The position numbers and the translations under genes were made by a program. A model generated the notes under the pieces. It saw only the letters and a program-made list of their open reading frames with translations, had not been told where the DNA came from and ran no database searches. Positions 1,511 to 59,280 of a stretch of 64,000 bases of DNA are shown one piece after another. Source of the stretch: Indolivaga alginatilytica. Its GTDB lineage: Bacteria; Bacteroidota; Bacteroidia; Bacteroidales; Dysgonomonadaceae. The first letter of the stretch is position 1. Each line of letters begins with the position of its first letter. The DNA lies in NCBI RefSeq assembly GCF_003201355.1, contig NZ_QICL01000011.1, positions 62,001 through 126,000 on the forward strand, given 5' to 3'.

Positions 1511-1541
1511 AAAATAAAGTAACAAATAGGTCTGAGACCTT
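1511..1541 (-). repeat. Interspersed GGTCTSAGACC repeat, copy 1
   Basis: Read on the minus strand this is AAGGTCTCAGACCTATTTGT followed by TACTTTATTTT. It matches copy 2 (19818-19850) over about 25 bases, well beyond the palindromic core, and shares the core with copies 3-6. It lies in the yebC leader, between a -7-like box (TACTTTTG, 1496-1503) and the yebC start. Confidence 0.6.
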
Positions 1542-1564
1542 AATGAAATTATAATAAACTTGAT

Positions 1565-2284
1565 ATGGGAAGAGCATTTGAATACCGTAAAGCAACGAAG
1601 ATGAAACGTTGGGGCAATATGGCTCGTGTATTTACTAAACTTGGAAAACAAATAACTATTGCAGTTAGAGAAGCAGGTCCTGAGCCTGATACAAATTCTC
1701 GTTTGCGTGTATTAATACAGCAATCGAAGAAGGAAAATATGCCTAAGGAGAACGTTGAACGTGCTATAAAAAAGGCTCTTTCTAAAGACGAATCTGACTA
1801 CAAAGAGGTTACTTACGAAGGGTATGGTCCTTTCGGTATTGCAATTGTGGTAGAGACTGCCACGGATAATCCAACTCGTACAGTGGCTAATGTGCGTAGC
1901 TATTTCAATAAAAATAATGGATCATTAGGTGTAACCGGTAGCTTAGAATTTTTATTCGATCATAAATGTGTTTTTAAAATTTCAGCTAAAGAAGGTGTTT
2001 CACTGGAAGATTTAGAGTTGGAGCTTATCGACTATGGTGTAGATGAAATAGAGCAAGATGAAGAAGATATACTTCTATACGGTGAGTTTAAATCTTACTC
2101 CGATATTCAAAAATATTTAGAAGAAAACGGATTTGAAATTCATAGTGCTGAATTTGAAAGAATTCCACATGAACTAAAAGAGGTTACAGAGGAGCAAAGA
2201 GCCCAAATAAATAAGCTTTTGGATAAGTTTGAGGATGATGAAGATGTTCAGAATGTATTTCATAATATGATGCCCGAAGAATAA
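1565..2284 (+). CDS. yebC: YebC/PmpR family regulator (TACO1-like)
   Basis: A 239-residue member of the YebC/TACO1 family. These proteins are annotated as transcriptional regulators, and several have been shown to help ribosomes pass difficult sequences such as proline runs. The N-terminal motif GRAFEYRKATKMKRWGNMAR is the family signature in its Bacteroidetes form, followed by the TKLGKQITIAVREAGPEPD segment, YEGYGPFGIAIVVE, and the middle/C-terminal domains (NGSLGVTGSLEFLF, IPHELKEVTEEQ). The ATG at 1565 starts exactly at the conserved N-terminus. It is followed by its own terminator, so it is probably a single-gene unit. Confidence 0.93.
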   Translation: MGRAFEYRKATKMKRWGNMARVFTKLGKQITIAVREAGPEPDTNSRLRVLIQQSKKENMPKENVERAIKKALSKDESDYKEVTYEGYGPFGIAIVVETATDNPTRTVANVRSYFNKNNGSLGVTGSLEFLFDHKCVFKISAKEGVSLEDLELELIDYGVDEIEQDEEDILLYGEFKSYSDIQKYLEENGFEIHSAEFERIPHELKEVTEEQRAQINKLLDKFEDDEDVQNVFHNMMPEE

Positions 2285-2304
2285 TTGACTATATCTATAA
2301 ATTG

Positions 2305-2340
2305 AAGAATCTTATTTGTTATTAAATAAGATTCTTTTTT
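2305..2340 (+). terminator. Terminator after yebC
   Basis: Perfect 13-bp arms (2305-2317 and 2324-2336) around a 6-base loop, ending in a run of T to 2340. Confidence 0.85.
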
Positions 2341-2383
2341 ATTATAAATGGTTAATTAATGCTCGGTACAATTGCGTATTGCG

Positions 2384-2391
2384 TATTTTTG
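2384..2391 (+). promoter_or_regulatory. -7 box (TATTTTTG) of the small-protein/apbE/rnfCD operon
   Basis: TATTTTTG fits the Bacteroidetes -7 consensus TAnnTTTG and lies 31 bases upstream of the first ATG of the operon. No clear TTTG is seen at the expected -33 distance, so the promoter is only partly supported. Confidence 0.45.
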
Positions 2392-2421
2392 TAAGGAAAA
2401 ATAACTTAATGTCTGAATAAG

Positions 2422-3739: not shown

Positions 3740-3742
3740 ATT

Positions 3743-6110: not shown

Positions 6111-6111
6111 A

Positions 6112-17597: not shown

Positions 17598-17764
17598 GCA
17601 AGTAATTTCAACTGTTAATGCTATATCTTATAAGTATAACTAATTTCCTATATTCTATTTACCCATTAAATAAAAAGGGCAGTGACCTTTTTTCTATAGT
17701 GGATATGACCTTAAACAAAGATAATTCAAAATAATCAATCTATAACTTTTTAATAAAATGAATG

Positions 17765-18950: not shown

Positions 18951-19062
18951 CTTATATAAGTCACTATGCGTATTTATACAGTATTTTATACTGATAACTT
19001 ATTGTTGTATTAATGCTTACTTAAGAAATAAAAGGTTTTGACACCTTAAAGAATAGTTAAAG

Positions 19063-19779
19063 ATGAAAATAGACGTTTGTTTTTCCCCGATTTTATATCC
19101 TTATTATGTAGAAAATACTGATACTATTGTAGTTGTAGTAGATATCTTCCGTGCTACTACTACCATGTGTATGGCTCTCAACAATGGCGCAGCCAGTATT
19201 ATGCCAGTAGCAACGGTAGAAGAAGCTAAGGCATACAAAGAGAAGGGATATTTAGTAGGAGGAGAAAGAAATGTTGTGAAATTCGAATTTGGCGATTTCG
19301 GTAATACTCCATCAGAATATACTCGCGAAAAAGTAGAGGGAAAAGATGTTGTTATCTCTACAACCAATGGTACTCATGCCATAGATATGGCAGAAGATTG
19401 TTCTTGTCTGATAATCGGTTCTTTTTCTAATATTTCGACGGTAGCTGATTTCTGTCTTTCTCAAAAAAAAGATGTTTTGGTTCTTTGTGCGGGGTGGAAA
19501 GATAAATTTAATCTGGAGGATAGCTTGTTTGGTGGTGCTTTGGCAGAGATATTAGTTGATAAAGGCGCATATAATGCGAACTTTGATGCTGCAGGTGTGG
19601 CCTTGTCTATGTGGAAAGAGGCTAAACCGGATATTCTCGCATATATAAAAAGAGGAGAGCATATGAAACGACTGGAAGCACATGGGCTTTTGGATGTTGC
19701 CGATTTCTGCTTACAATCAGATACAACTCCAGTTTTGCCCATTTACAATAAAAACACGAAAAAGATATCCCTACAGTAA
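19063..19779 (+). CDS. comB: 2-phosphosulfolactate phosphatase family protein
   Basis: A 238-residue ComB-family enzyme. Family features are VVVVDIFRATTTMCMALNNGA (the 'DvlRAttti..al..Ga' motif), YLVGGERNVVKFEFGDFGNTPSEY, VISTTNGTHAI, VLCAGWKDKFNLEDSLFGGA. ComB was defined in coenzyme M synthesis, where it dephosphorylates 2-phospho-3-sulfolactate in a Mg-dependent way. Bacteroidetes commonly have a homologue although they do not make coenzyme M, so the physiological substrate (sulfolactate for sulfonolipid, or another alpha-hydroxy acid phosphate) is open. No other sulfonate gene is nearby. The gene stands alone. Confidence 0.85.
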   Translation: MKIDVCFSPILYPYYVENTDTIVVVVDIFRATTTMCMALNNGAASIMPVATVEEAKAYKEKGYLVGGERNVVKFEFGDFGNTPSEYTREKVEGKDVVISTTNGTHAIDMAEDCSCLIIGSFSNISTVADFCLSQKKDVLVLCAGWKDKFNLEDSLFGGALAEILVDKGAYNANFDAAGVALSMWKEAKPDILAYIKRGEHMKRLEAHGLLDVADFCLQSDTTPVLPIYNKNTKKISLQ

Positions 19780-19817: not shown

Positions 19818-19850
19818 AAAGGTCGCAGACCTATCTGTTACTTTCGTAAC
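19818..19850 (+). repeat. Interspersed GGTCTSAGACC repeat, copy 2
   Basis: AAAGGTCGCAGACCTATCTG followed by TTACTTTCGTAAC. The first half is the shared core (GGTC-GCA-GACC); the second half forms its own small hairpin, GTTAC-TTTC-GTAAC. It lies 38 bases after the comB stop in the same orientation. Confidence 0.6.
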
Positions 19851-19871
19851 TACAATATATATTGGTAGTTA
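19847..19871. repeat. Near-palindrome adjoining repeat copy 2
   Basis: TAACTAC (19847-19853) and GTAGTTA (19865-19871) flank the self-complementary AATATATATT. It overlaps the end of the interspersed repeat and may be a terminator-like or cruciform structure; no T-run follows. Confidence 0.4.
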
Positions 19872-19941
19872 TAATGGAAAGCTATAGAAAATAATAAGTT
19901 GGAAATATTTATAATAATAAAGAAAATAATTAGCTAGACTC

Positions 19942-28337: not shown

Positions 28338-28356
28338 TTAAAGAAGAAGAACATTT

Positions 28357-31272: not shown

Positions 31273-31274
31273 AA

Positions 31275-34096: not shown

Positions 34097-34116
34097 TTCT
34101 TTTAATTATATTTTTA

Positions 34117-35010: not shown

Positions 35011-35018
35011 AATTTGCT

Positions 35019-35921
35019 ATGGTTTCAGTAATTATACCCAATTATAATCATGAAAAATATCTTCAGCATCGGATTGATTCGGTGTTGAATCAAACATATC
35101 AGGATTTTGAGCTTATTATTTTGGATGATAAATCAAAAGATAGTAGTATTGAGATTATAGAAAAATACAGGAATCACCCTAAAGTTTCTCATGTTGTTTA
35201 TAATGAGGTTAATAGCGGAACAACCTTTAAACAATGGAAAAAAGGAATAGAATTAGCCCAAGGTGAATATATTTGGATTGCTGAAAGTGATGATTATGCA
35301 GACGTTACTTTTCTGGAGAAGATAATTTCTTTAATAGAGAAAAATAATTCGGTACTTTGTTTTTCCCAATCTTATGTAATTGATGAATACGACACTATTA
35401 AGCGAAAGAGAGATGAAGTCTTAAAAACGGACTTTTGTAACCTTGATTATTTTCTTTCCAATAATTTACTTTATGGAAATGTAATTTACAATGCCAGTAT
35501 GGTTGTATTCCGTAAAGATGCAATTGAAGAATCTATCTGGGAAGAATTAACAAAACTGACTTATTGCGGAGATTGGTTGTTCTGGGCAAAACTGGCAATG
35601 AATACCAGAGGAACTGTATCTGAAGTAAAAGAATATTTAAATTATTTTCGAAATCATAGCTCGAATGTTTCTAATCGGTCGGAAGTGAATGGCTTAACTT
35701 TTCTGGAAGGTTTTCCTATTTCTAAAATGATAGCTAAGAGGCAAGGTATTAAATCAGATAAACAATTTAGGGAAAAATGGTTCGCAGAATGGCAGCATTA
35801 CAGATTGTATTATTTACTATCTAAAAAAACAAATTTAAAAATTCTTCTCTTATTTTTAAGGCAGCAACCTATAATCGCATTTTATGAATTTAAACGATTA
35901 TTTTTGAGATTATTCAAATAA
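35019..35921 (+). CDS. GT2 family glycosyltransferase
   Basis: A 300-residue GT2 enzyme: MVSVIIPNYNHEKYLQHRID, FELIILDDKSKDSSIEIIEKY, the W-rich GEYIWIAESDDYAD with its SDD metal-binding motif (about residues 84-97), and a variable C-terminal half. The stop overlaps the next start by one base (TAATG), so translation is coupled. It carries a basic, aromatic C-terminal region that may associate with the membrane surface. Confidence 0.88.
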   Translation: MVSVIIPNYNHEKYLQHRIDSVLNQTYQDFELIILDDKSKDSSIEIIEKYRNHPKVSHVVYNEVNSGTTFKQWKKGIELAQGEYIWIAESDDYADVTFLEKIISLIEKNNSVLCFSQSYVIDEYDTIKRKRDEVLKTDFCNLDYFLSNNLLYGNVIYNASMVVFRKDAIEESIWEELTKLTYCGDWLFWAKLAMNTRGTVSEVKEYLNYFRNHSSNVSNRSEVNGLTFLEGFPISKMIAKRQGIKSDKQFREKWFAEWQHYRLYYLLSKKTNLKILLLFLRQQPIIAFYEFKRLFLRLFK

Positions 35922-36907
35922 TGAGTATAAAATATCCATATACGGTTTCAGTTCTTATGCCTGCATATAATGCTGCGGAGTATATCGGAGAGGCTATTGA
36001 TAGTATTCTGGAGCAGACATTTAAAAATTTTGAATTTTTAATAATAGATGACGGTTCAACGGACTCTACAGCTGATATTATTGAGCAATTTAATGATACC
36101 CGGATAAAATTAATTCGTAATGAAGGGAATAAAGGACTGATTTACTCCTTAAATTATGGATTAGATATTGCTCAGGGAAAATATATTGCCCGTATGGATG
36201 CTGACGACATAGCTTTCAATACGAGATTGGAGAAGCAGGTAGAATTTTTAGAGAATAATCCCGATATATCGATTCTTGGAACGGCTTTTGTTTTTATGGG
36301 CACTTCGTATGAGATACACCATCCCAATTATAATGATGAAATACGTATTAAATTATTAGACGATGTTGTTTTTGCTCATCCGACAGTAATGATGCGTAGG
36401 GATGTTATCAATTTGAATAATATAAGGTATAATGCTGACTATACATACATAGAGGATTATCGTTTTTGGGTAGAAGCTGCCATTAAGAATGTGAAAATGG
36501 CAAATTTAGAGGAAGTATTACTGCAATACCGACAACACCCAAACCAAGTTACGAGTCAAAGGGCTCAAGAGCAGTTAGAAACAAAGCAGAGAATAAAATT
36601 AGAATATTTATCCCACTATTTTGGAGAGAATTTAACTTCTGATGAACTGATTTCTGTAAATAGATGTTTTGATATTGATTTACCTTCGAAAATATTGATT
36701 CTGGATAAGTTAAGCAAAACTAATAGGCGGCTCAATCTGTTTTATAAGAAATGTTTTGATCAATATATTGATATAATTATTTATCGGAATGTGCCTCGGG
36801 ATCGATTTATCTCTCTCGGAGAATTGTTAAGAGTGATAAGGAATAATGTATCTTTGAGGTTTATAAATGTTTTATTGAAAATCAATATAAAGAAATTACT
36901 AAGATAA
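35921..36907 (+). CDS. GT2 family glycosyltransferase
   Basis: A 328-residue GT2 enzyme with YTVSVLMPAYNAAEYIGEAI, FEFLIIDDGSTDSTADIIEQ, and the metal-binding GKYIARMDADDIAF (about residues 86-99), then FAHPTVMMRRDV and EDYRFWVEAA, a pattern common in capsule and O-antigen loci. It is the last gene of the more AT-rich first half of the locus; interspersed repeat copy 3 begins 4 bases after its stop codon. Confidence 0.88.
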   Translation: MSIKYPYTVSVLMPAYNAAEYIGEAIDSILEQTFKNFEFLIIDDGSTDSTADIIEQFNDTRIKLIRNEGNKGLIYSLNYGLDIAQGKYIARMDADDIAFNTRLEKQVEFLENNPDISILGTAFVFMGTSYEIHHPNYNDEIRIKLLDDVVFAHPTVMMRRDVINLNNIRYNADYTYIEDYRFWVEAAIKNVKMANLEEVLLQYRQHPNQVTSQRAQEQLETKQRIKLEYLSHYFGENLTSDELISVNRCFDIDLPSKILILDKLSKTNRRLNLFYKKCFDQYIDIIIYRNVPRDRFISLGELLRVIRNNVSLRFINVLLKINIKKLLR

Positions 36908-36910
36908 TTT

Positions 36911-36950
36911 AAGGTCGAAGGCCTTTTTATGGCTTTGGCAACTATAAAAT
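36911..36950 (+). repeat. Interspersed GGTCTSAGACC repeat, copy 3
   Basis: AAGGTCGAAGGCCTTTTTAT followed by GGCTTTGGCAACTATAAAAT. It aligns with copy 6 (minus strand, 59280 down to 59241) over about 38 bases with few differences. It fills the gap between two glycosyltransferase genes, in the same orientation as the upstream gene, and marks where the base composition of the locus changes. Confidence 0.6.
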
Positions 36951-37005
36951 ACCCGGATATAGTTATTTTGATAAAATATCGCATTAAATATTTAACGTCA
37001 CTTAT

Positions 37006-37839
37006 ATGCCTAAGATTTCTCCCGTTATATCTATAATAGTTCCCTGTTACAATCAGGCGGAATATTTACCCGAAACTTTGCAAACGGTTTTGGAGCAAGA
37101 GTATATCGATTGGGAATGTATTATTGTGAATGACGGATCACCCGATAATACGGAAGAAGTTGCATTGGCATGGTGCCGGAAAGATGATCGGTTCAAATAC
37201 CTGAAAAAAGAAAACGGAGGGCTTTCAGATGCCCGAAATTATGGAATTAAACATTCTACAGGTAAATATATACTACCTCTTGATTCGGATGATAAAATAT
37301 CGAAAGATTATACCATCGAAGCAATTGGTATTTTGGAAAAAGACCCGTCCGTAAAACTTGTGTTTTGCAGAGCAAAGCTATTTGGGGTCCAAAATGAGGA
37401 ATGGGATTTATTGCCGTATACATATGATAATATGTTATTTGTGCGTAATTGCATTTATTGTTCCGCCATTTATAAGCGCTCCGATTATGACCTGACAGCA
37501 GGTTATAATGTGAATATGATTTATGGTTGGGAAGATTATGATTTCTGGTTAAGTCTGCTCCGTCGTGAGGATAAAGTGGTGAAACTGGATAAATTTCATT
37601 TCTTCTATCGGACAAAAGATGTATCGATGCGTACGTTAATAAATGAAGAGAAAGAGCGTTTCTTAAGGCTTCAAATATTTAAAAATCATATGGATATTTA
37701 TCTGGAATATATCAATCCGATAGAAATGTACAGTGAATTAAAGAGGTATAAACTTATTGAAAATTCATTACAATATAGAATCGGCGGAATCATACTGGCT
37801 CCACTCCGTTATATTCATCAATTATTAAAAAAGAAATAA
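37006..37839 (+). CDS. GT2 family glycosyltransferase
   Basis: A 277-residue GT2 enzyme: SPVISIIVPCYNQAEYLPETLQ, WECIIVNDGSPDNTEEVALAW, NGGLSDARNYGIKHSTGKYI, and LPLDSDDKIS with the DSDD metal-binding motif (about residues 91-100), then YGWEDYDFWLSLL. This subgroup is frequent in polysaccharide loci of Bacteroidetes. Repeat copy 4 begins within its stop codon. Compared with genes before 36.9 kb, its codon use is less extreme in A+T. Confidence 0.88.
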   Translation: MPKISPVISIIVPCYNQAEYLPETLQTVLEQEYIDWECIIVNDGSPDNTEEVALAWCRKDDRFKYLKKENGGLSDARNYGIKHSTGKYILPLDSDDKISKDYTIEAIGILEKDPSVKLVFCRAKLFGVQNEEWDLLPYTYDNMLFVRNCIYCSAIYKRSDYDLTAGYNVNMIYGWEDYDFWLSLLRREDKVVKLDKFHFFYRTKDVSMRTLINEEKERFLRLQIFKNHMDIYLEYINPIEMYSELKRYKLIENSLQYRIGGIILAPLRYIHQLLKKK

Positions 37840-37870
37840 GGTCTCAGACCTTTTTATTGCCACTTAATAT
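37838..37870 (+). repeat. Interspersed GGTCTSAGACC repeat, copy 4
   Basis: AAGGTCTCAGACCTTTTTAT followed by TGCCACTTAATAT. The first two bases belong to the TAA stop codon of the preceding glycosyltransferase. The first 25 bases are identical in plan to copy 6. It separates the GT2 gene from the fucosyltransferase gene. Confidence 0.65.
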
Positions 37871-37878
37871 GTTTTGGT

Positions 37879-38790
37879 ATGGTTTATATAGAACTGAACG
37901 GGCGGATTGGGAACAATCTTTTTCAGATAGCCGCAGGAGCTTCTTATGCTAAGAAATATAACCTGAACTATAGGGTTGTATGTCATGATGGTTATTTTTT
38001 GCCTGAACCTGACAACTGTTATATAAAAGATTATATAAAACAATTTAAAGATAATATCTTAAGGAATATACCTATTCAAGAGGGACGACCTCAGGAAGAG
38101 TGTTTTTATTATTATGATATTGATTTTGTATACAGAGAGATACCGTATCATGAAAATATTCTGCTGTATGGTACTTTTCATTCCTATAAATACTTTGATA
38201 AGGAGTTGGTTAATAGCTTGTTCGAGATTTCGCCAAGTGAAAAGGAATATATTCTGAACAAATACGGAGATATATTATCAGAGGATGTGACCTCCATACA
38301 CGTTCGCAGAGGCGATTATTGTAAACAACCTCATAGGTATGCAGTTGCATCGATGCCTTATTTTAATAAGGCGATAGATTATATAGGGCGTGATAAGAAA
38401 TTTCTGATTATTAGCGATGATATTGAATGGTGTAAAAAGAAATTTAAAGGAGATAATTTTTATTTTAGCGATAACGAAAAGCCGATTATCGATTTATATA
38501 TTCAGATGCTATGCAAGAATAATATTATAAGTAACAGTACTTTCAGTTGGTGGGGAGCGTGGCTGAATCCTAATTCCGATAAAGTGGTGATATACCCTGA
38601 TCCTTGGTATGGAAAAACTTTTAGTAATTATAATACAAAAGATTTAATACCTCTCGATTGGATACGCACGGAAAGTAAGTTGTCGTGGGGATTATATCTT
38701 TTAGCTATAAGCTTGAACTTTAAGGAAAAGGTTCAAAATTTAGCACCCAAATCGTTGAAGGAAAAAGTGAAGAAATTTTTGAAGAGATAA
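37879..38790 (+). CDS. Alpha-1,2-fucosyltransferase, GT11 family
   Basis: A 303-residue GT11 protein. The N-terminal MVYIELNGRIGNNLFQIAAG (family motif 'G.lGNq.fq.a.g') and the donor-binding motif VTSIHVRRGDYCK (H-x-R-R-G-D-Y, about residues 138-150) are diagnostic, followed by FLIISDDIEWCKKKF and the C-terminal NNIISNSTFSWWGAWLN motif. GT11 enzymes transfer L-fucose from GDP-fucose in alpha-1,2 linkage, typically onto galactose. This predicts fucose in the exported glycan, although no GDP-fucose synthesis genes are in the window. Start ATG at 37879 immediately precedes the conserved region. Confidence 0.93.
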   Translation: MVYIELNGRIGNNLFQIAAGASYAKKYNLNYRVVCHDGYFLPEPDNCYIKDYIKQFKDNILRNIPIQEGRPQEECFYYYDIDFVYREIPYHENILLYGTFHSYKYFDKELVNSLFEISPSEKEYILNKYGDILSEDVTSIHVRRGDYCKQPHRYAVASMPYFNKAIDYIGRDKKFLIISDDIEWCKKKFKGDNFYFSDNEKPIIDLYIQMLCKNNIISNSTFSWWGAWLNPNSDKVVIYPDPWYGKTFSNYNTKDLIPLDWIRTESKLSWGLYLLAISLNFKEKVQNLAPKSLKEKVKKFLKR

Positions 38791-38792
38791 GT

Positions 38793-40064
38793 ATGAAAAT
38801 TGTAACGCTAAGCACTAAAGATTCTTTTGGAGGAGCTGCACGTGTTGCATTTCGTCTCCACGAAGAGATTAATAAGAAGGGTATTGAGGATATCCTTTTG
38901 GTTAATAGCAAAAGAACTTCATGTAAAACAGTGCATCTGGCCGAAAATTACCATGATCCGCAAAATCGTATCGTTGGTTTTCTGAATAAATATAAGCTTA
39001 AGCTTCAAGAAAAGAGAAGACGTCTTATTTGGGGAGGCTACCCTGATATGCAAAATAAAATACTCTCGGATATTGCAATTTCGCTATTGAAAAACTCATT
39101 GGATAAATTGGATTTCGATCTGGTTCATATGCATTGGGTAGGGGAGAGTTATGTCGATTTTACGGAATTTTCGAACGTAACGAAGCCTATAATCTGGACA
39201 ATACACGATTGTTTCTCATTTACAGGATTATGTTCGTATTTCGAAGATTGCGACAAATATAAAACACATTGCAATGCTTGTCCTCAATTAGGATCAACTA
39301 AAGAAAAAGACTTAAGCTACAAGGTATTTGAGATGAAGAAGAAGAGGTATTCTTCGCTCCGTTTTCATATTGTAAGCCCAAGCAGGTGGCTTGCGGATGC
39401 AGCTAAAGGTAGCTTGTTGCTAAATAAATATCCTGTAACAGTTATTCCCAATGGTATTGACACTTCTGTTTTTGCTCCCATGAATAAGGAGGAAGCAAAG
39501 AAATCATTATCTTTAGATACAGCAAAGAAGACTATTCTTTTTGGGGGAATATCTGCAATGGCAGATCCCCGAAAAGGCGGAGAGTTGTTGATGGAGAGTT
39601 TAAAAATATTGTCGGGAATGTATTCCGAAGATGAAGTAGAATTGCTTATATTCGGGTCAGAGAAGCGTGATGATTATCAGTTTAACTTTCCTGCCAAGTT
39701 TTTAGGATATGTAAGTGGAGAAGCCGACTTAGCTTTGGCATACAATGCAGCGGATGTTGCAATTGTACCGTCTACACACGAAAATTTTCCGAATACGATT
39801 CTTGAAAGTTTATCTTGTGGAACGCCTGTTGTGGCATTTAATATCGGAGGAAATCCCGATATGATCGACCATCATCAGAATGGGTATTTAGCAAAGCCTT
39901 ATGATACAGGTGATTTGACGGTTGGTATTGTTTATTGTCTTAGTCATAACGAAGATAACAGTCTTAGTTATAATGCCCGGAAAAAAGTATTGGATAACTT
40001 CAGGATAGAAGATATCGCCAATCGATATATAGAATTGTACAAAGAAATTTTAGCCAATGAATAA
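38793..40064 (+). CDS. GT4 family glycosyltransferase, copy B
   Basis: A 423-residue GT-B enzyme. N-terminus MKIVTLSTKDSFGGAARVAF, then VHMHWVGESYVDF, IIWTIHDCFSFTGLCSYFEDC with several cysteines (a CxxC pair follows at NACPQLG), SPSRWLADAA, VIPNGIDTSVFAP, and the C-terminal E-x7-E region PSTHENFPNTILESLSCGTP. It is the paralogue in plan of the gene at 31275-32498. It starts 2 bases after the fucosyltransferase stop and overlaps the methyltransferase by 8 bases (ATGAATAA). Confidence 0.9.
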   Translation: MKIVTLSTKDSFGGAARVAFRLHEEINKKGIEDILLVNSKRTSCKTVHLAENYHDPQNRIVGFLNKYKLKLQEKRRRLIWGGYPDMQNKILSDIAISLLKNSLDKLDFDLVHMHWVGESYVDFTEFSNVTKPIIWTIHDCFSFTGLCSYFEDCDKYKTHCNACPQLGSTKEKDLSYKVFEMKKKRYSSLRFHIVSPSRWLADAAKGSLLLNKYPVTVIPNGIDTSVFAPMNKEEAKKSLSLDTAKKTILFGGISAMADPRKGGELLMESLKILSGMYSEDEVELLIFGSEKRDDYQFNFPAKFLGYVSGEADLALAYNAADVAIVPSTHENFPNTILESLSCGTPVVAFNIGGNPDMIDHHQNGYLAKPYDTGDLTVGIVYCLSHNEDNSLSYNARKKVLDNFRIEDIANRYIELYKEILANE

Positions 40065-40899
40065 CAAAAAATGTCTTATTTGTGGAGGCGAAAGCATAAA
40101 ATTGTTTTCGGCAAAAGTGTTACATAAATACGATGTCGATTATCATAGATGCACTTGTTGCGGTTTCATTCAGTCCGATACTCCGTATTGGTTGGACGAA
40201 GCTTATAGCGATGCCATTACCTCTATGGATATTGGCTTGATATATCGTAATCTGGTATATTCGTCAGCAGTGGAGAATGTAATAAAAAGTTCGTTCGACT
40301 ATACTAAAAAATTTCTTGATTATGCAGGTGGCTACGGAATGTATGTCCGTTTGATGCGTGATAAAGGATTTGATTTTTATTGGGACGATAAATATTGTGA
40401 TAATCTGTTTGCCAAGTATTTTACATTGGAGGAATTGGAGCCGTCACCTAAATTTGAGGCTGTTACCGCTTTCGAGATTTTTGAACATTTAGCAAATCCT
40501 TTGGAGGAAATAGAGAAACTATTCACTTATTCGGATTCTATCATTTTTTCGACCGAATTAGTCCCCGATAAAGAAGTCGCAAGTACTAACGATTGGTGGT
40601 ATTTTGCTCCCGAGGGAGGTCAGCATGTCAGTTTCTACACCAAACAGGCATTTGAAGTTATTGCGGGTAAATTCTCCTGTAATTTTTACTCTAATGGAAA
40701 AGACCTTCATATTCTGACTAAAAAGACATTGAAAAAGAATCCATTGGATTATACACGAACTTTCTGGGATAAAGTAGCCGATCGTTTGATTGGTATATTA
40801 CGCAGAAGTAAAAGTAATGCTCCTGCTGCCGTAAATTTAGGTAGTAAGATTCCTCAGGATGTGCAATATATACGTAAAATTGTTCATAAAGAAGATTAA
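40057..40899 (+). CDS. Class I SAM methyltransferase with N-terminal zinc-finger-like motif
   Basis: A 280-residue protein of the Methyltransf_23 type. An N-terminal four-cysteine motif (CLICGG...CTCCGF, about residues 6-37) is followed by the SAM-binding FLDYAGGYGMYVRLMRDKGF (about 93-112) and AFEIFEHLANPLEEI, which is where this family has the post-II motif. The usual GxGxG is AGGYG here. Such proteins methylate sugars or act in polysaccharide synthesis. It overlaps the preceding GT4 gene and is followed directly by repeat copy 5. Substrate unknown. Confidence 0.82.
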   Translation: MNNKKCLICGGESIKLFSAKVLHKYDVDYHRCTCCGFIQSDTPYWLDEAYSDAITSMDIGLIYRNLVYSSAVENVIKSSFDYTKKFLDYAGGYGMYVRLMRDKGFDFYWDDKYCDNLFAKYFTLEELEPSPKFEAVTAFEIFEHLANPLEEIEKLFTYSDSIIFSTELVPDKEVASTNDWWYFAPEGGQHVSFYTKQAFEVIAGKFSCNFYSNGKDLHILTKKTLKKNPLDYTRTFWDKVADRLIGILRRSKSNAPAAVNLGSKIPQDVQYIRKIVHKED

Positions 40900-40911
40900 A
40901 GGTCTCAGGCT
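40899..40911 (+). repeat. Interspersed GGTCTSAGACC repeat, copy 5 (truncated)
   Basis: AAAGGTCTCAGGC retains the left part of the repeat core and begins at the last base of the methyltransferase stop codon. It is cut short by the next gene's ATG at 40912. The weakest of the six copies; included because of its identical position relative to a stop codon. Confidence 0.4.
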
Positions 40912-42066
40912 ATGAAAGTATTATACGATCATCAGATATTTGAACATCAACGTATAGGCGGTGTATCTCGCTATTTCGCTGAGATTATCAGGCACTTGCC
41001 TGCTGGTGTTGAAGCTGATGTATCTGTACAGTATGCTTTCAATGAATATCTGAAAGGTTTGAATATCCCTTTTGAGTGGAAAGATCAGTTAATTTCTTAT
41101 TATTCTTTTCTTCCGAAAATAAATTTTAAAGGTAAAAAAAGACTGTATTCGTTTTTACAAGAGAGGTTTCCTGAGAAATATCCTGATTTTTATAAGATTA
41201 ATGAAGCAAGAACCATTGATAAGCTCAAAAAAGGAGATTTCGATGTTTTTCATCCGACTTTCTTTGGCGATTATTATCTCGATCACTTAAATGGTAAGCC
41301 TTATGTGCTGACTGTACATGATATGATTATCGAGTTATATCCCGAATTTATAAATAGTCCGCAATTTATTAAACGAAAGAAGAAGCTGGTCGATAATGCA
41401 GCTCATATAATTGCAGTCTCGGAAAATACAAAACGAGACATTATAGACGTATTCGGAACTTCAGCCGATAAAATATCGGTGACATATCATGCCTCGTCTT
41501 TGGTTGACGGAGGTCATAAACCCGAAAATTTGCCGAAGAAATATCTGCTGTATGTAGGGGACAGGCGTTTGGGGTATAAGAATTTCAGTTTTTTCATTGC
41601 AGCTATACAGCCGATCTTGTTGGAAAACAAAGAATTGTGTGTTGTTTGTACAGGCGATCATTTTACTTCGGAGGAGAACAAATACTTTGAAGCATTGGGG
41701 ATAAAAGACCAGCTCAAAATTATATTTGTGAATGATACGCAACTATTTGGATTGTATAAATCTGCTGAAATGTTTATATATCCATCTTATTATGAGGGTT
41801 TTGGTATTCCGATTTTGGAAGCATTCCAAGCTCAATGCCCTGTCGTTTTAAGTAATGAGAGTTGTTTTCCCGAAGTTGCAAGAGATGCGGGTGTTTATTT
41901 TGACTCTAAATCGCCCGCCCGGTTAAGACAAGCAGTGTCGAGCTTGTTGAACAACAAAGAATTGAGGCACGATATGATAAATAAAGGCACGCAACGCTTA
42001 CAAAATTTCTCTTGGGAAAAGAGTGCTTTGCAGACTGTCGAAATATATAAGGAAGTACTTAGATGA
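40912..42066 (+). CDS. GT4 family glycosyltransferase
   Basis: A 384-residue GT4 enzyme of the mannosyltransferase-like kind. N-terminus MKVLYDHQIFEHQRIGGVSRYF, then VLTVHDMIIELYPEF, HIIAVSENTKRDIIDVFG, LLYVGDRRLGYKNFSFFIAAI, and the E-x7-E motif in PSYYEGFGIPILEAFQAQCPV. This layout is typical of WbaZ/WcaI-type mannosyl- or glucosyltransferases. It ends with an ATGA overlap with the next gene. Confidence 0.9.
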   Translation: MKVLYDHQIFEHQRIGGVSRYFAEIIRHLPAGVEADVSVQYAFNEYLKGLNIPFEWKDQLISYYSFLPKINFKGKKRLYSFLQERFPEKYPDFYKINEARTIDKLKKGDFDVFHPTFFGDYYLDHLNGKPYVLTVHDMIIELYPEFINSPQFIKRKKKLVDNAAHIIAVSENTKRDIIDVFGTSADKISVTYHASSLVDGGHKPENLPKKYLLYVGDRRLGYKNFSFFIAAIQPILLENKELCVVCTGDHFTSEENKYFEALGIKDQLKIIFVNDTQLFGLYKSAEMFIYPSYYEGFGIPILEAFQAQCPVVLSNESCFPEVARDAGVYFDSKSPARLRQAVSSLLNNKELRHDMINKGTQRLQNFSWEKSALQTVEIYKEVLR

Positions 42067-42878
42067 AGAAAGTATCCATAATAACCATATCGTACAACAA
42101 TGCGAAAGGATTGCTGCGTACGATTGAAAGTGTAGTTGGGCAAACGTATACCGACTACGAATATATTGTTATAGATGGAGGTTCTACGGACGAAAGTAGA
42201 GAGATAATAAACTCTTTTTCGGATAAGATAACCTATTGGGTAAGTGAACCCGATAATGGCGTATACAATGCCATGAATAAAGGTATTGCGGTTGCTAAAG
42301 GCGAGTATCTTCATTTTCTTAATTCGGGTGACAGCTACGCCTCGGAAGATGTTTTGCAGAAAACATTTTCGAGAGAATATATAGAACCTCTGCTTAGAGG
42401 TATTCAAATATGCGATTATGGTACTCACCAAATTAAATGGGAGAATCTGGGTAATCGTCAAGTGACTCTATATGATATGTTTGTAAATACGATGTTGCAT
42501 CAGGCTACATTTATCAGACGCGATATGTTTGAGAAATACGGACTATACGATGAGACTCTGAAAATAGTATCGGATTGGAAATTTTTCTTTCTAACAATAT
42601 TGGGTGGAGAACATACAGCTTTCCTCGATCTGGATGTTGTTATCTTCGAAATGGAAGGTATCAGTACCAATAAAACACACGGAGAATACCATTTAGAAGA
42701 ACGCAGGCAAGTTATAAAAGAGCTGATGCCTCATAATCTGTTAACAGATTACGAAAGACTTCGAATGTTGGAACAGGAGGCTTATATTCCTAAATTTATA
42801 AAGTCAAACAGATTGATTTATTGTTCTTTCAGAGTGTTATACAAACTATTTAAACCTATAAAAATACACCTTTTATGA
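42063..42878 (+). CDS. GT2 family glycosyltransferase (YWVSEPDNG type)
   Basis: A 271-residue GT2 enzyme: VSIITISYNNAKGLLRTIESV, YIVIDGGSTDESREII, ITYWVSEPDNGVYNAMNKGI, HFLNSGDSYASEDVL, LHQATFIRRDMFEKYGLYDE and KIVSDWKFF. These are the same landmarks as in the first domain of the 32495 gene and the 44712 gene, making three related enzymes in one locus. Both ends overlap neighbours as ATGA, indicating strict translational coupling. Confidence 0.9.
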   Translation: MKKVSIITISYNNAKGLLRTIESVVGQTYTDYEYIVIDGGSTDESREIINSFSDKITYWVSEPDNGVYNAMNKGIAVAKGEYLHFLNSGDSYASEDVLQKTFSREYIEPLLRGIQICDYGTHQIKWENLGNRQVTLYDMFVNTMLHQATFIRRDMFEKYGLYDETLKIVSDWKFFFLTILGGEHTAFLDLDVVIFEMEGISTNKTHGEYHLEERRQVIKELMPHNLLTDYERLRMLEQEAYIPKFIKSNRLIYCSFRVLYKLFKPIKIHLL

Positions 42879-43798
42879 CTCTAGCACCAATCGTTTTGTT
42901 TGTTTATAATAGACCTAAACATACAGAGCAAACGTTAATCGCTTTGATGAAGAACGATTTATCGAAAGATAGTATATTGTATATATATGCAGATGGTCCT
43001 AAAGCGGATGCCTCGGAAGATGATTTAAAGAAAATAGCAGAAGTCAGGGCTTTAATCAAATCACAGCAATGGTGCGGAGAAGTCCACATAATAGAGTCGG
43101 ACCGTAATAAAGGATTAGCCGATTCTATCGTAAAAGGAGTTACCGAAACGGTAGATAAATACGGAAAAGTTATTGTTGTGGAAGATGACATTGAAACCAG
43201 TGTAGGCTTTCTGACATACATGAACGATGCTTTGAATTTGCACGAGAACAACGAGAAAATAATGTCTGTTGCAGGATTTATGTTTCCTATAGATTCGGAA
43301 GGATTGCCTCATACCTTTTGTTTTGATGCAGGTACTTGCTGGGGATGGGCTACTTGGAAACGTGCATGGAAATATTTCGACGTTGATATTGAGCGTATAT
43401 ATAACCGGTTGGAAAATGAAAATGTGGACTGGCGTAAATTCAACGCTTTACAGGGAACATCTTATCAGGAGCAATTGATGTATAATGTAAGGGGCACACT
43501 CAAAACATGGGCTGTAAAATGGCAGGCAGCAATTTACCTGAATAAGGGAACTGCTTTGCATCCGCGTCAAAGCTTAGTGAAAAATCTGGGATTTGACGGG
43601 TCGGGCATGAATTGCGATGATAATGAAGTGTATCGTAATATGTTAATAGCAGATTATATAAAAGTTGAGCCTCTAAAGAACATGTATAGCAAAGAAGCTC
43701 ACAAAAGGCTGAAAGAGTATTTTCAAACGCCTACGGACAGATTGTATCGGCTGAAACGAATTGTATGGAGAATACAACGGGCAATAAAGCATAAGTGA
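42875..43798 (+). CDS. Glycosyltransferase (APIVLFVYNRP type), copy B
   Basis: A 307-residue paralogue of the 30343 gene: APIVLFVYNRPKHTEQTLIAL, LYIYADGPKADASEDDL, WCGEVHIIESDRNKGLADSI, the acidic VVEDDIETSVGFLTYMN motif, CWGWATWKRAWK and KTWAVKWQAAIYLNKG. Conservation runs end to end, so a cassette duplication or recruitment of related genes is likely. It overlaps the previous gene as ATGA; 35 bases separate it from the next start. Confidence 0.82.
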   Translation: MTLAPIVLFVYNRPKHTEQTLIALMKNDLSKDSILYIYADGPKADASEDDLKKIAEVRALIKSQQWCGEVHIIESDRNKGLADSIVKGVTETVDKYGKVIVVEDDIETSVGFLTYMNDALNLHENNEKIMSVAGFMFPIDSEGLPHTFCFDAGTCWGWATWKRAWKYFDVDIERIYNRLENENVDWRKFNALQGTSYQEQLMYNVRGTLKTWAVKWQAAIYLNKGTALHPRQSLVKNLGFDGSGMNCDDNEVYRNMLIADYIKVEPLKNMYSKEAHKRLKEYFQTPTDRLYRLKRIVWRIQRAIKHK

Positions 43799-43833
43799 GA
43801 ATCATAAACATGACTTGAATATTGTATATCAGA

Positions 43834-44715
43834 ATGAATAACTACCCTAAAATATCAATTGTTACACCTAATTATAATCAGGTTAAGTATCTGGAGGAAA
43901 CAATACTGTCGGTATTGAATCAAGGGTATCCTAATCTCGAATACATAGTTATAGACGGAGGCAGTACCGATGGTTCTGTTGAAATCATCAAGAAGTATGC
44001 CGACCGATTAGCATATTGGGAAAGTGTACCCGACAATGGGATGTATGATGCTATACGTAAAGGATTCGAGAAATCGACAGGCGAGGTTATGGCATGGATC
44101 AATTCGGATGATATGTATCAATCCAAGTCTTTTTTTACTGTAGCAGAGATATTCGGAAAGTATAGTCAGGTTAACTGGTTATTGGGATTTCCATCTATAT
44201 ATGATGCCTTGGGACGTATTGTCGAATGTCCGCATACATTACGTCAATGGTCTAAGTATGACCTGTACATTGGTCAATACCAGTGGATACAGCAAGAATC
44301 GGTATTCTGGCGCCGCTCTTTATGGGAGAAAGCCGGATCGAGAATAGAATCTTCACTGAAATATGCAGGAGATTTTGAATTGTGGTTCAGATTTTTCACA
44401 TACGAGAAATTATATGTGACCACTGCTATATTAAGCGGTTTCAGAATGAGGGATGGCGAACAGCTTTCCATGAAACAAAAAGATGCTTATGATGCAGAGA
44501 TCAAATCTGTATTGGCTGCCAGAGTATATACAGAGGAGGAGAAATCTATTTTAAAGCGATACAATAAGAGGAAAAAACAATTCTTATTTCTGTCAAAATT
44601 CAAAATATTTAATGCTAAACTGATTCTTGATAAATTTAAATTGGATAATTTCGGATATCCGGAGGTTATATCTTTCGATCGCCATGAACAATGCTTTAAA
44701 CTTGGAAGTCAATGA
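43834..44715 (+). CDS. GT2 family glycosyltransferase
   Basis: A 293-residue GT2 enzyme: PKISIVTPNYNQVKYLEETI, YIVIDGGSTDGSVEIIKKY, YWESVPDNGMYDAIRKGFEKS, and the metal-binding EVMAWINSDDMYQ (about residues 84-96), then QQESVFWRRSLW. The ATG at 43834 is preferred to an in-frame TTG four codons earlier. It ends with an ATGA overlap. Closely related in plan to bacterial PGL/LOS-type GT2 enzymes; sugar unknown. Confidence 0.9.
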   Translation: MNNYPKISIVTPNYNQVKYLEETILSVLNQGYPNLEYIVIDGGSTDGSVEIIKKYADRLAYWESVPDNGMYDAIRKGFEKSTGEVMAWINSDDMYQSKSFFTVAEIFGKYSQVNWLLGFPSIYDALGRIVECPHTLRQWSKYDLYIGQYQWIQQESVFWRRSLWEKAGSRIESSLKYAGDFELWFRFFTYEKLYVTTAILSGFRMRDGEQLSMKQKDAYDAEIKSVLAARVYTEEEKSILKRYNKRKKQFLFLSKFKIFNAKLILDKFKLDNFGYPEVISFDRHEQCFKLGSQ

Positions 44716-45530
44716 AAGTATCGATTATCACTATTAATTGGAATAACAAAATAGGATTGGAGCAGACCATAAAAAGTGTCTTATCCCAATCGTTTATTGA
44801 TTATGAGTTTATTGTAGTTGATGGAGGGTCTACCGATGGAAGTGTTGAAGTAATACAGGAGCATAAAAATAATATCCATTATTGGGTAAGTGAATCCGAT
44901 TCGGGTATTTATAATGCCATGAATAAGGGTATTTATACAGCTCTGGGCGAATATTGTTATTTTCTTAATTCGGGAGATGTCTTTGCGTCCGATGATGTTT
45001 TGACAGATATTTTCAGACACGATCTTGAAGACAATTTTGTGTGTGGCAATATAATCTGGGATGAGAAAGGAAAGCTCCGAAAAGATGACAGTTACAGGCA
45101 TCGAGATTGGTTATTTTCATTGTATGATATTTATTCAGGGTTTTTATGCCATCAGGCTTTTCTGGTAAAGAGAGAAATGTTTGACGAATATGGGTATTAT
45201 GATGAGAGTCTTCGAATTATGTCCGATTGGAAACATTTTTTGATAGCGATAGGTATTAATCACGAAAAGGTGCAATATGTCGATGTGGATATTGCAGTCT
45301 ATAATACCGATGGTTTGAGCAGTACTATAGGTGGTAAAGCTATTCTGGCAGAGAAGCAGAAGGTAGCTCAAGAAGAACTTTCCGAACAAGTTTATAAAGA
45401 GATCGACAGGCTGTATTATTTATCCAGAAATGGTTTTGTAATAGACTTTGTTCATTCAAAAAAATGGATACATTTTCTATTTAAGGTTTTCTTAAAGATT
45501 TGCACAACTTTGAAATTAACAAAACTATAA
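44712..45530 (+). CDS. GT2 family glycosyltransferase (YWVSESDSG type)
   Basis: A 272-residue GT2 enzyme and the last gene of the locus: VSIITINWNNKIGLEQTIKSV, FIVVDGGSTDGSVEVIQEH, YWVSESDSGIYNAMNKGI, CYFLNSGDVFASDDVL, LCHQAFLVKREMFDEYGYYDE and MSDWKHFLIA. It is the third member of the subgroup shared with 32495 (first domain) and 42063. No clear terminator is seen immediately after; the following 440 bases carry the repeats described separately. Confidence 0.9.
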   Translation: MKVSIITINWNNKIGLEQTIKSVLSQSFIDYEFIVVDGGSTDGSVEVIQEHKNNIHYWVSESDSGIYNAMNKGIYTALGEYCYFLNSGDVFASDDVLTDIFRHDLEDNFVCGNIIWDEKGKLRKDDSYRHRDWLFSLYDIYSGFLCHQAFLVKREMFDEYGYYDESLRIMSDWKHFLIAIGINHEKVQYVDVDIAVYNTDGLSSTIGGKAILAEKQKVAQEELSEQVYKEIDRLYYLSRNGFVIDFVHSKKWIHFLFKVFLKICTTLKLTKL

Positions 45531-56554: not shown

Positions 56555-56582
56555 GCACCCGATTGCTAATAGGCAGATAAGA

Positions 56583-56616
56583 AACTATAAAGAATAGTTC
56601 GCCTCAGGCTCATAAC
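56583..56616 (+). promoter_or_regulatory. Possible structured leader of rplU
   Basis: Within the rplU leader, AACTAT-AAAGA-ATAGTT (from 56583) forms a 6-bp hairpin followed by GCCTCAGGC. Ribosomal-protein operons often carry an autoregulatory leader recognised by the encoded protein; a specific L21-binding structure here is only a guess. Confidence 0.3.
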
Positions 56617-56634
56617 TTGTAAAATATATTGCAG

Positions 56635-56946: not shown

Positions 56947-56966
56947 TCAGTTAAAATTAGAAGAAA

Positions 56967-57236
56967 ATGGCACACAAGAAAGGTGTAGGTAGTTCGAAGA
57001 ATGGCCGTGAATCGGAAAGTAAACGATTAGGCGTTAAAGCATTTGGTGGTGAAGTAGTGAAAGCTGGAAACATCATCGTTCGTCAAAGAGGAACAACACA
57101 TCATCCGGGTGAAAATGTAGGTATCGGTAAAGATCATACATTATTTGCTCTTGTTGATGGAGTAGTTGCATTCCGTAGAAAAAAGAACGAAAGATCATTT
57201 GTATCTGTAGTTCCTAAAACAGAAGCAGAAGCTTAA
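56967..57236 (+). CDS. rpmA: 50S ribosomal protein L27
   Basis: An 89-residue L27 with the classic [20 protein letters not shown] start, [20 protein letters not shown] and [20 protein letters not shown]. The N-terminus reaches the peptidyl-transferase centre. MAHKKG is already the mature form, with no cleavable Firmicutes-type extension. The gene is followed by a terminator; serS, often next in Bacteroidetes, is not here. Confidence 0.97.
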
Positions 57237-57257
57237 TAGCAGATTCTTTAAAATAAG

Positions 57258-57289
57258 AAAAGCAGTTTGATTTATTTCAAGCTGCTTTT
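57258..57289. terminator. Terminator of rpmA, overlapping the 3' end of the TOPRIM gene
   Basis: AAAAGCAGTTTGA (57258-57270) pairs with TTCAAGCTGCTTTT (57276-57289) with a short loop, followed by T residues to about 57299. The minus-strand gene's stop codon (57272-57274) and last codons lie inside this hairpin. Confidence 0.75.
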
Positions 57290-58030
57290 TTCTTTTTTTA
57301 GGATAACTGATTTTTGTAGCTCTCCATTTTTAAATCGTTCTATGGTCTGAATCAATTCATTTAAGGAAGGGGTTCTGAATCTTATATCATTCATTATTTT
57401 ATTAAAATCGAGCCGATGGACTAATTTTTCTACTTGCCAGTATTTCTTGGTGTAGGATCTCCCTATCAATTTATATATCTTGTTGATGTCTTCCGATGGA
57501 TGTTCTCGTGATATGGGGTTTACAGTATCGGGATTGAATCCTAGATTTTTTTCGATAAATCTTCCAGTCAGCTTTCTGTCGACTCTCAAAAAATGGCTGC
57601 TTTCAGCTAAAAACCAAGTTTCGACCTCTCTTACTGCAACCACAATATCAAAAGGACAATCTTTTTTCTTAAGAGGGTAGGGCAGAAATTTTAAACCTTG
57701 CTCGAGGCGGGGTAATTCTTCTATAGATAATGGATACAAATCTCGTAAGCCGATTATGCATGTGTAACCTGCCTCTCGTAAACTATTTATATTGTCTAAT
57801 ATTTCTGATTTTACACGGTTGTCCGATCCGCAATCGTAGATGAGTGCAGTGTATTCAGATTTTAGTGAGATGCTGTAATTTCTTACAAATTCGCGTTTCG
57901 GGGCATTGGTTCCTCCTGATATTTTTTTCAGCAGAACTGTAAGGTTCCCATAGCCAATAATCTCCTTTACAAGCCTATTGATAAAGACCTGCTCGGTTTG
58001 TCCTTCAACAAAGAATGCAATCTTTTTCAT
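57272..58030 (-). CDS. TOPRIM-like (DUF4276-type) protein of an ATPase/TOPRIM pair
   Basis: A 252-residue protein with the layout of small TOPRIM nuclease-like proteins (DUF4276, near RloB and OLD-type nucleases). The first strand carries a catalytic-type glutamate in KKIAFFVEGQTEQVFINRLV (Glu 9); the acidic cluster ALIYDCGSDNRVKSEI (Asp 66, Asp 70) and IIGLRDLYP follow, then VREVETWFLAES with further acidic residues. TOPRIM folds coordinate divalent metal for cleavage, so a DNA or RNA nuclease is expected but not shown. It lies 9 bases downstream of the AAA ATPase gene on the same strand, as in PARIS and OLD-like two-gene defence modules. Its last codons sit inside the rpmA terminator. Confidence 0.65.
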   Translation of the reverse strand: MKKIAFFVEGQTEQVFINRLVKEIIGYGNLTVLLKKISGGTNAPKREFVRNYSISLKSEYTALIYDCGSDNRVKSEILDNINSLREAGYTCIIGLRDLYPLSIEELPRLEQGLKFLPYPLKKKDCPFDIVVAVREVETWFLAESSHFLRVDRKLTGRFIEKNLGFNPDTVNPISREHPSEDINKIYKLIGRSYTKKYWQVEKLVHRLDFNKIMNDIRFRTPSLNELIQTIERFKNGELQKSVILKKEKSSLK

Positions 58031-58039
58031 ATATCGGCT

Positions 58040-59200
58040 TTATTCTTCCTCTTCTTTCTCTTCCTCTTGTTCGTCTTTGAATCCTTGAAGATAAAAATCT
58101 GTGGCTAAAAAATCAAAGTTATTTAATCCAGTATATTTAAAATCGTCAAATATTTCCCTTGCATTGTGATAGTTGTGAAAAACAGAAATATTATGTTTTC
58201 GTTCTATTACAGACCAATACCTTAAAGGTATTTTGTTCATTATATAGCGGTCGTTCGAAGTTATAAATATCTGTATATCTGAATTGTTGACTTTGTAGAT
58301 CAAAATATCGATAAGAGATTTCGATCGGGCATAATCCAAACCTTCGCCTAAATCGTCAATAAGAAGACATACGGAGATTTTGCTGAGTAAGGCAAACTCC
58401 ATTTGTATAAGAAAAGATAATGCTCTGAACATCCCTTGAGACATGTCTAGTTGGAGGGTAGGTTCAGATAGCTCTTCTTCTTGTACGGATATACCTATAC
58501 CTAGTTTGTTTTTTAGTAGATCAATGTTAGTAACATCATAGCCTATATCGTGAAGATCGGAAATAATAGTATCTATAAAAGGCTGTCCGAAACGATTCTT
58601 GCCTTCGAAGAAAAGTTTGATAACATTGTCTGGGGAAAAGTCTTCTATTAATTTAGAGCTTTCCAGATCTTCTTTATCTTTGATGAGATGGTTCTTCTCA
58701 TATTGATTTGTAAATGCATAATTCTTCAAAGCATTACTCCATTCGAATATCTCTGGTATGTAAGGATATTCATCATCTTTATCTTGGATGGAAGTAATTG
58801 GGTCTGTGGCAGCAATGTCTAATTTATCAAACCGGAGAGAAGTTTGTGAATAGATTATATTCTTTGTTCGGTTGTATTTTTCGATACCTTTTACTCGTAG
58901 AATTTCTTCAGTAATTAGTCGATTTTCTATTGATATAGTATATTCGTAAGTTATGTTATCTTCTTTTAGTATAAGATGATATTTGGAATCTTTAAATTTG
59001 AGGTTTGAAACCGGTTTTTTTAGAGATAATAGAGTTGCTATTTCGCATAAGGCAGATAAAGTTCTACTTTTTCCCACAGCATTTTTCCCCACGAAAAGGT
59101 TGATATTGTCAAATCTTACCAAATCGCCGTCTTTCCCCTCAATACCCCATTGATTGGGCTTGCCTTCTTCTCTAATATATTTGAAAAATTCTAATATCAT
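58040..59200 (-). CDS. AAA/ABC-type ATPase (AAA_21/OLD-like) of an ATPase/TOPRIM pair
   Basis: A 386-residue SMC/ABC-related ATPase. The Walker A motif GKNAVGKSRTLSAL is at about residues 37-50, a long variable middle carries the coupling helices, LDMSQGMFRALSFLIQ stands where the ABC signature/LSxG motif is, and Walker B is CLLIDDLGEGLDYARS (about residue 295), where the usual DEP is DDL, followed by the switch-like ITSNDRY. The C-terminal tail is a low-complexity EEQEEEKEEEE. The layout fits the AAA_21/OLD family that pairs with TOPRIM nucleases in anti-phage modules. The unusual Walker B could weaken catalysis. No named system is assigned. Confidence 0.75.
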   Translation of the reverse strand: MILEFFKYIREEGKPNQWGIEGKDGDLVRFDNINLFVGKNAVGKSRTLSALCEIATLLSLKKPVSNLKFKDSKYHLILKEDNITYEYTISIENRLITEEILRVKGIEKYNRTKNIIYSQTSLRFDKLDIAATDPITSIQDKDDEYPYIPEIFEWSNALKNYAFTNQYEKNHLIKDKEDLESSKLIEDFSPDNVIKLFFEGKNRFGQPFIDTIISDLHDIGYDVTNIDLLKNKLGIGISVQEEELSEPTLQLDMSQGMFRALSFLIQMEFALLSKISVCLLIDDLGEGLDYARSKSLIDILIYKVNNSDIQIFITSNDRYIMNKIPLRYWSVIERKHNISVFHNYHNAREIFDDFKYTGLNNFDFLATDFYLQGFKDEQEEEKEEEE

Positions 59201-59240
59201 ACTTTCTGTTTGATGGTTATAGTTTTAACAGGCTCTGATT

Positions 59241-59280
59241 ATTATGCTTGCCATAGCAATAAAAAGGTCTGAGACCTTTT
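59241..59280 (-). repeat. Interspersed GGTCTSAGACC repeat, copy 6
   Basis: On the minus strand: AAAAGGTCTCAGACCTTTTT then ATTGCTATGGCAAGCATAAT. It starts immediately after (overlapping the last base of) the stop codon of the coiled-coil protein gene and has the same orientation. The core is a perfect 21-base palindrome in the strand sequence; the second half has the hairpin TTGC-TATG-GCAA. Confidence 0.65.

Follow-up and report, generated by a model that had tools for sequence, protein, structure and literature searches.

A probable MITE-like mobile element of ~93 bp in Dysgonomonas, inserted at TA and often found in sense orientation on stop codons

We analyzed a 64,000-nucleotide stretch of the Indolivaga alginatilytica assembly GCF_003201355.1 (contig NZ_QICL01000011.1, positions 62,001 to 126,000; the window), which lies on contig C11 of a 5.12 Mb Dysgonomonas genome (G000), and the short repeats in it that share a GGTC-N3-GACC core. 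We consider it likely that these repeats are the copies and remnants of one non-autonomous mobile element of ~93 bp resembling a miniature inverted-repeat transposable element (MITE). Its insertion at TA is precise and duplicates the target, as seen in eight gap-free empty sites and in one copy of the window. The window has four exact cores, compared to 0.18 expected and a maximum of one in 100 shuffles, and G000 has 519, where a control with the pattern written backward yields 14. Core counts in five relatives from the genus were 527 (9 for the backward control), 282 (12), 265 (6), 105 (33), and 12 (29); the last of these genomes (62% complete) has no core excess. A longer unit became apparent from 55 core sites read with their flanks, and a profile of 93 positions was trained on 464 kb of G000, where it finds 68 copies at E < 1e-4. 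Searched against 917,176 bases (about one sixth of the genome, and partly its own training sequence), the profile returned 151 full and partial matches at ≥ 14 bits, while the reversed sequence and three dinucleotide simulations returned 0. This density, ~165 per Mb, extrapolates to ~840 full and partial matches in the genome. The family of short repeats proposed by an initial annotation of the window is thus real, with copies far above background.

The unit reads TA-AGGTCTCAGACCTTTTTATTGC...CATTAAATA...TTACT-TA, with TAAGGTCTCAGACCTTTTTATTGCTTTGGTAAGTATAACAACAATAGATAGTTATAATTATAAAATATAGCATTAAATATTTTATATTACTTA as the profile consensus, and many copies are decayed or keep their 5' end only. At its left end is the palindrome AAGGTC-N3-GACCTT (hairpin I), followed in many copies by a run of T, and at its right end is a weaker hairpin around ATCATTAA, in which 75.7% of cells are paired. 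The perfect terminal inverted repeat is limited to TAAG/CTTA. Similarity past the palindromic core, claimed in the initial annotation, was borne out by an alignment of 44 copies (A1; 3 of 47 listed copies were left out). The element length of 30–40 bases given there was not, and it fell short of the 93-base unit because four of the five real copies it listed are 5'-end remnants or partial.

Insertion could be read from filled and empty sites in G000 and its closest named relative, Dysgonomonas sp. HGC4 (G003; 97% identity in one protein), using near-full copies only. In a comparison of 94 such copies from G000 with a 1.41 Mb sample of HGC4, the site was empty and gap-free for 7 copies and empty-like with gaps for 12; another 10 copies were shared, and 65 lacked an orthologous site in the sample. 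The reverse comparison, of 73 HGC4 copies with 917 kb of G000, gave 1 gap-free empty site, 4 gapped sites, 10 shared copies, and 56 without an orthologous site, with 2 skipped. At least two of the gapped sites are not empty, as C1:96968 corresponds to a decayed copy and HGC4 C163:98872 to a short remnant. All 8 gap-free pairs have one TA in the empty site and a TA at both element ends when filled; at C1:362334, for example, the empty site reads AATAAT-TA-TTTACAA. In these pairs, the left TA is preceded by T in 6/8 and by A in 2/8, and the right TA by T in 8/8; therefore, the duplication is no longer than TA. The target context is weakly biased, with a pyrimidine before the TA and A/T after it.

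Divergence between shared copies (11 pairs, with one pair below 80% identity left out) was 9.8% in hairpin I (16/164), 10.7% in the remainder of the element (91/847), and 6.5% in the flanks (276/4256), which are partly coding. With ~ 10% divergence inside shared copies, and hairpin I changing about as fast as the rest, the copies therefore differ in age and seem to decay freely. We propose that an enzyme acting in trans, presumably a transposase that uses the palindromes as binding sites, would recognize the left palindrome AAGGTC-N3-GACCTT and the right end CATTAAATA...TTACT. Insertion at a TA with A+T-rich surroundings would leave TA on both sides of an element of ~ 89–91 bp (plus TA at each end), and later decay, probably neutral, would leave 5'-end fragments like several in the window. 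The sense-oriented excess on stop codons described below would then arise at insertion, not from later selection.

The window holds seven profile matches, two of them missed by the initial annotation, whose copy numbers are given in brackets below together with one site that it listed and the profile did not match:

36910..37004, plus strand: full-length copy (copy 3); 54 bits, model positions 1-93
59217..59278, minus strand: copy without its 3' end (copy 6), directly past the stop of gene 59280-60179; 44 bits, model positions 2-63
17600..17689, minus strand: full-length diverged copy (not listed before) in a divergent intergenic region; 34 bits, model positions 2-92
18957..19048, minus strand: full-length diverged copy (not listed before) in a divergent intergenic region; 29 bits, model positions 1-93
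19819..19889, plus strand: copy without its 3' end (copy 2), ~38 bases past the stop of gene 19063-19779; 33 bits, model positions 2-72
37837..37860, plus strand: 5'-end-only remnant (copy 4), whose own TAA is the stop of gene 37006-37839; 18.7 bits, model positions 1-24
1516..1542, minus strand: 5'-end-only remnant (copy 1) between the divergent genes 193-1392 and 1565-2284; 16.6 bits, model positions 1-27
40899..40911, plus strand: stop-codon site sharing ten letters (copy 5), unsupported as a copy and possibly a remnant; no profile match at E ≤ 1

Gene 35921-36907 stops 3 bases ahead of the copy at 36910..37004, and gene 37006-37839 starts 2 bases after its end; in HGC4 this copy is missing between alignable flanks (alignment with L016). 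Five of the six copies first listed (1, 2, 3, 4, and 6) were matched by the profile; copy 5 was the exception, and a count of its 10-mer, AAGGTCTCAG, over a single strand of the 917 kb gave 16. The contact with stop codons reported at the same time stands for copy 4, which begins on the TAA, and for copy 3, just past a stop. Copy 6 follows its stop directly, with no overlap.

The left palindrome has changed on both sides of its stem. At pair 5-13, the 44-copy alignment has GC 34, CG 4, TA 1, GT 1, and other 4. In 52 copies from several genomes, which were hand-picked to include palindrome variants and form a biased sample, the same pair has GC 41, CG 6, TA 5, and unpaired 0, and it covaries most strongly of all. 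Less biased counts come from the 44-copy alignment and from 255 left-end copies, 136 of which have GGTC/GACC, 8 GCTC/GAGC, and 4 GTTC/GAAC, while 76 are not fully paired. GTTC/GAAC was found in young G005 copies and GCTC/GAGC in copies of G000 and HGC4, and this division of the variants by lineage indicates that the palindrome was kept in different active lineages. The compensatory change suggested earlier for the second hairpin (element positions 21-24/29-32, with 86–88% of cells paired) is weak there, where paired departures are mostly one-sided, and is clear as two-sided change in the first palindrome. For a four-helix structure, the 52-copy alignment has 41 cells changed on both sides compared to 21.1 (sd 4.8) in shuffles, a figure inflated by relatedness, and A1, with a different pair set, has 23 compared to 15.1 (sd 3.1).

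The initial annotation had also offered a 3'-UTR (untranslated region) RNA signal. An element of this kind, acting in RNA processing or stability, would spread by mobility and be retained for the structure of its RNA; it would fit the sense bias at stop codons, as well as an excess of G-T over A-C cells in hairpin II (32 vs 10 in alignment A4; 21 vs 9 in A1). In hairpin I, however, G-T and A-C cells number 5 and 5 (A4), and across all helices they number 95 and 71 (p 0.07) in A4 and 74 and 81 in A1. Hairpin II excepted, these near-equal cells point to a site that would act as DNA rather than as RNA. Hairpin I also diverges no more slowly than the remainder in orthologous copies, stop-codon copies do not retain it better, and there is little orientation bias between tandem genes (51 sense and 40 antisense among near-full copies; 62 and 71 among all left-end copies). 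In the window, no Rfam model matched at gathering, and for four loci the sole match up to E 1 stood at E 0.8, below gathering. We consider this reading very improbable. Compared to its shuffles, a single young copy had no better fold as RNA (z -0.59) and a somewhat better one as DNA (z -1.57 and -2.54 for the two strands). Inside the element, TTTG and TAnnTTTG resemble what we take to be a promoter motif, which we mention as an idea only.

To describe placement at stop codons, the G000 and HGC4 samples were combined (2.3 Mb), with genes called by a simple longest-ORF (open reading frame) caller at ≥ 100 codons; copies common to both genomes enter the counts of both. The element's own TAA is the stop of a gene, in sense orientation, for 55/279 copies. 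Among near-full copies (n = 155), 25 are stop-sense compared to 3.0 expected, and 6 are stop-antisense compared to 4.4 expected, with the expectation taken from a target weight matrix of 124 non-stop near-full insertions. Plain target preference was rejected as the cause of the excess on these numbers. A third genome, G005, had 7/32 stop-sense and 0/32 stop-antisense copies, with 0.66 expected for each. Expressed per thousand TA-orientations (for 162 near-full copies taken with a somewhat looser cut, of which 27 were stop-sense and 4 lay at sample edges), the density was 17.9 for stop-sense, 4.0 for stop-antisense, 2.7 for tandem sense, 2.1 for tandem antisense, 2.0 for divergent, 0.33 for convergent, and 0 for coding positions. 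Separately, near-full copies were scarce between convergent genes, with 2 for 6140 TA-orientations across the 2.3 Mb, where tandem and divergent gene pairs had 2.0–2.7 per thousand.

Among the 19 copies with an empty-like HGC4 site, 5 are stop-sense (C1:96968, one of the five, is decayed there) and 1 is stop-antisense. By score class, from youngest to oldest, the stop-sense share was 3/24, 7/36, 13/57, 14/74, and 10/48, and stop-antisense copies numbered 1, 0, 1, 4, and 0. The lowest share is that of the youngest class, so selection may have contributed in part, but no steady rise with age is clear. Where HGC4 sites were readable, the ancestral stop was found by eye in the same place, as TAA at C1:82803, C1:381082, and C2:63706 and as TAG at C1:136475, which counts against truncation of genes by in-frame insertion. 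Truncation was rejected as a candidate on a second ground as well, namely that there was no cluster at about -38, the first of two other frame exits (the one near -76 lies outside the range scanned).

A hairpin with a T run at gene ends suggests a family of intrinsic terminators, in which AAGGTC/GACCTT and the T run would be kept for ending transcripts past stop codons. Hairpin I with T5 does resemble a terminator, and 55/279 copies begin on a stop codon in sense. However, a unit of 93 bases that has empty sites is unlike a plain terminator, and the four core pairs are intact in 32/51 stop-codon copies compared to 147/204 other left-end copies. A simple scan placed other terminator-like hairpins after 288/1617 genes, and these begin a median of 26 bases past the stop. 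Copies 3 and 4 of the window lie inside a same-strand run of ORFs (27474-45530), where termination would be polar, and the divergence of hairpin I in orthologous copies, like that of the remainder, indicates that it is not maintained where transcripts would end. We therefore regard a terminator family as quite unlikely.

Because the stop-sense share does not clearly rise with age, stop-codon copies keep hairpin I no better than others do, and other hairpins lie farther off, we lean towards a bias at insertion as the source of the stop-codon excess; selection soon after insertion is a possible cause. A further reading, in which the mobilizer of the element is drawn one-way to the TA of stop codons by being coupled to transcription or to translation and not by DNA sequence, seems to us rather unlikely. 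The ends of GTAG repetitive extragenic palindromic (REP) sequences often supply TAG stop codons, as reported in PMC3733652, so contact with stop codons is not itself new. Its sense orientation here, and its presence in copies absent from a relative, deserve follow-up.

REP sequences bear on the question of what moves the repeat. The initial annotation had described it as REP/MITE-like and had suggested looking for a linked REP-associated Y1 transposase. Palindromes moved by such a Y1 tyrosine transposase would account for the high copy number and the hairpins, and G000 does have one Y1 gene. Nevertheless, Y1 was found in only 3/6 genomes of the genus and was not detected in G001 or HGC4, both of which are element-rich. 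The single Y1 gene of G000 (L226:1450-1986; C1:535931-536467) sits amid palindromes of another type, GGATTTGCAATCC, and tandem small ORFs starting with MKTDLYTK or similar, and the GGTC-N3-GACC core is absent from the surrounding 534.0–538.5 kb. The unit of 93 bases with TA on both sides, ends of TAAG/CTTA, and no GTAG or CGTC tag also argues against a REP system, which we judge extremely unlikely. The MITE half of the earlier description has fared better, with empty sites, TA on both sides, hundreds of copies, and mixed ages.

Several observations weigh against the MITE-like element as we describe it. TA on both sides would also fit insertion beside a TA of an element that itself ends in TA. 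The perfect terminal inverted repeat has only four bases, and the inner arms are 84% paired, with no covariation above shuffles, which makes for a poor classical MITE. An autonomous partner was not found in ~ 2 Mb of two genomes. There, 19 pairs of left and right ends were listed, 6 of them < 110 bases apart and 13 longer; 30 of the 32 ORFs (≥ 100 codons) between the longer ends were searched, and 26 match Pfam, none as a transposase, while 4 match nothing. An IS630-type DDE_3 domain was likewise not found in G000.

A covariance model of the element, scored on up to 70 matches per genome, matched 9/61 relatives, comprising 5/6 Dysgonomonas, 4/31 other members of the family, and 0/24 from other families. 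Separately, HGC4 had 147 matches, Dysgonomonas sp. Marseille-P4677 had 6, and UBA10850 had 0. Of 295 genomes drawn evenly from the order, with up to 14 matches scored per genome, 4 matched at 1e-4. One of them, G198, belongs to another family and has 7 matches, and the six that were read have both ends in common with the element and hardly the middle. Recognizable ends around a different middle were also seen in other genera. Plasmids, phages, and viral contigs had no match to a young copy, and viral contigs also had none to its exact left end.

Other repeats were seen alongside the element. At G000 C1:252824, 254828, 506050, 521245, 555061, and 562730, and at G005 255588 and 287057, the middle is swapped for a long hairpin, GTAGGGGTGAACCTATGTGTTC...GGTCTGCCCCTAC, and both ends are kept; hairpins related to this one are present in many contigs. 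A separate ~195-bp repeat (L114:3162-3356; G000 C1:363162-363356), flanked by TTA and with GAGCCTGTTTAAATTT as its inverted ends, adjoins the 3' end of one copy, and similar stretches occur in the genus. A ~ 540-bp repeat (L114:5533-6069; C1:365533-366069) is found in dozens of places in G000, several beside the 93-base element, with shorter matches in other genomes of the genus.

Among known systems, the TA-ended bacterial MITEs are described in PMC2229807 as < 200 bp, non-coding, and A+T-rich, with TA ends and a target duplication, and ERIC reaches up to hundreds of copies per genome (PMC10969869). ERIC, RUP, and Correia/NEMIS resemble the 93-base element in small non-coding size, A+T-richness, TA ends, target duplication, and copy number. 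It differs from them in that no related insertion sequence (IS) ends were found, its perfect terminal inverted repeat has four bases, its palindrome lies at one end with a 3-base loop, and its sense excess on stop codons is strong. REP sequences, which PMC3733652 gives as palindromes of 20–40 bases with a GTAG or CGTC tag, are found with REP-associated tyrosine transposases (RAYT), also as bacterial interspersed mosaic elements (BIME), in hundreds of copies, as here; the 93-base element has neither tag nor a consistent Y1 gene. In Streptococcus pneumoniae, SPRITE is a small, MITE-like sequence that resembles a terminator and lies near gene 3' ends in 30 copies, and according to PMC3049150, an empty site or target duplication could not be established for it. 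Compared by description, the two share their small size, terminator-like appearance, and position near 3' ends, and empty sites with duplication are shown only for the element studied here. BrickBuilt, a MITE with 19 copies in one strain of Porphyromonas gingivalis, is another MITE-like repeat of the Bacteroidales, set apart by the minisatellite inside it and by terminal repeats that resemble those of the IS elements in that species (PMC4596501). No paper on the 93-base repeat was among the literature matches listed.

The repeat forms a new family, MITE-like and of an already known kind, to which ERIC, RUP, Correia, and other small mobile sequences with TA ends belong. It adds a well-bounded family with empty sites to an order for which the literature matches listed included one MITE paper, that on BrickBuilt. 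It is a major repeat of G000, and it would confuse the annotation of terminators, 3' UTRs, and operons. The element may point to an as yet unknown mobilizing enzyme. The excess at stop codons, if it is an insertion preference, asks how a mobile element senses gene ends. If insertion is in fact guided by such coupling, the conservation of the ends across two families of this order would speak for a long-lived mobile lineage whose mobilizer is undescribed.

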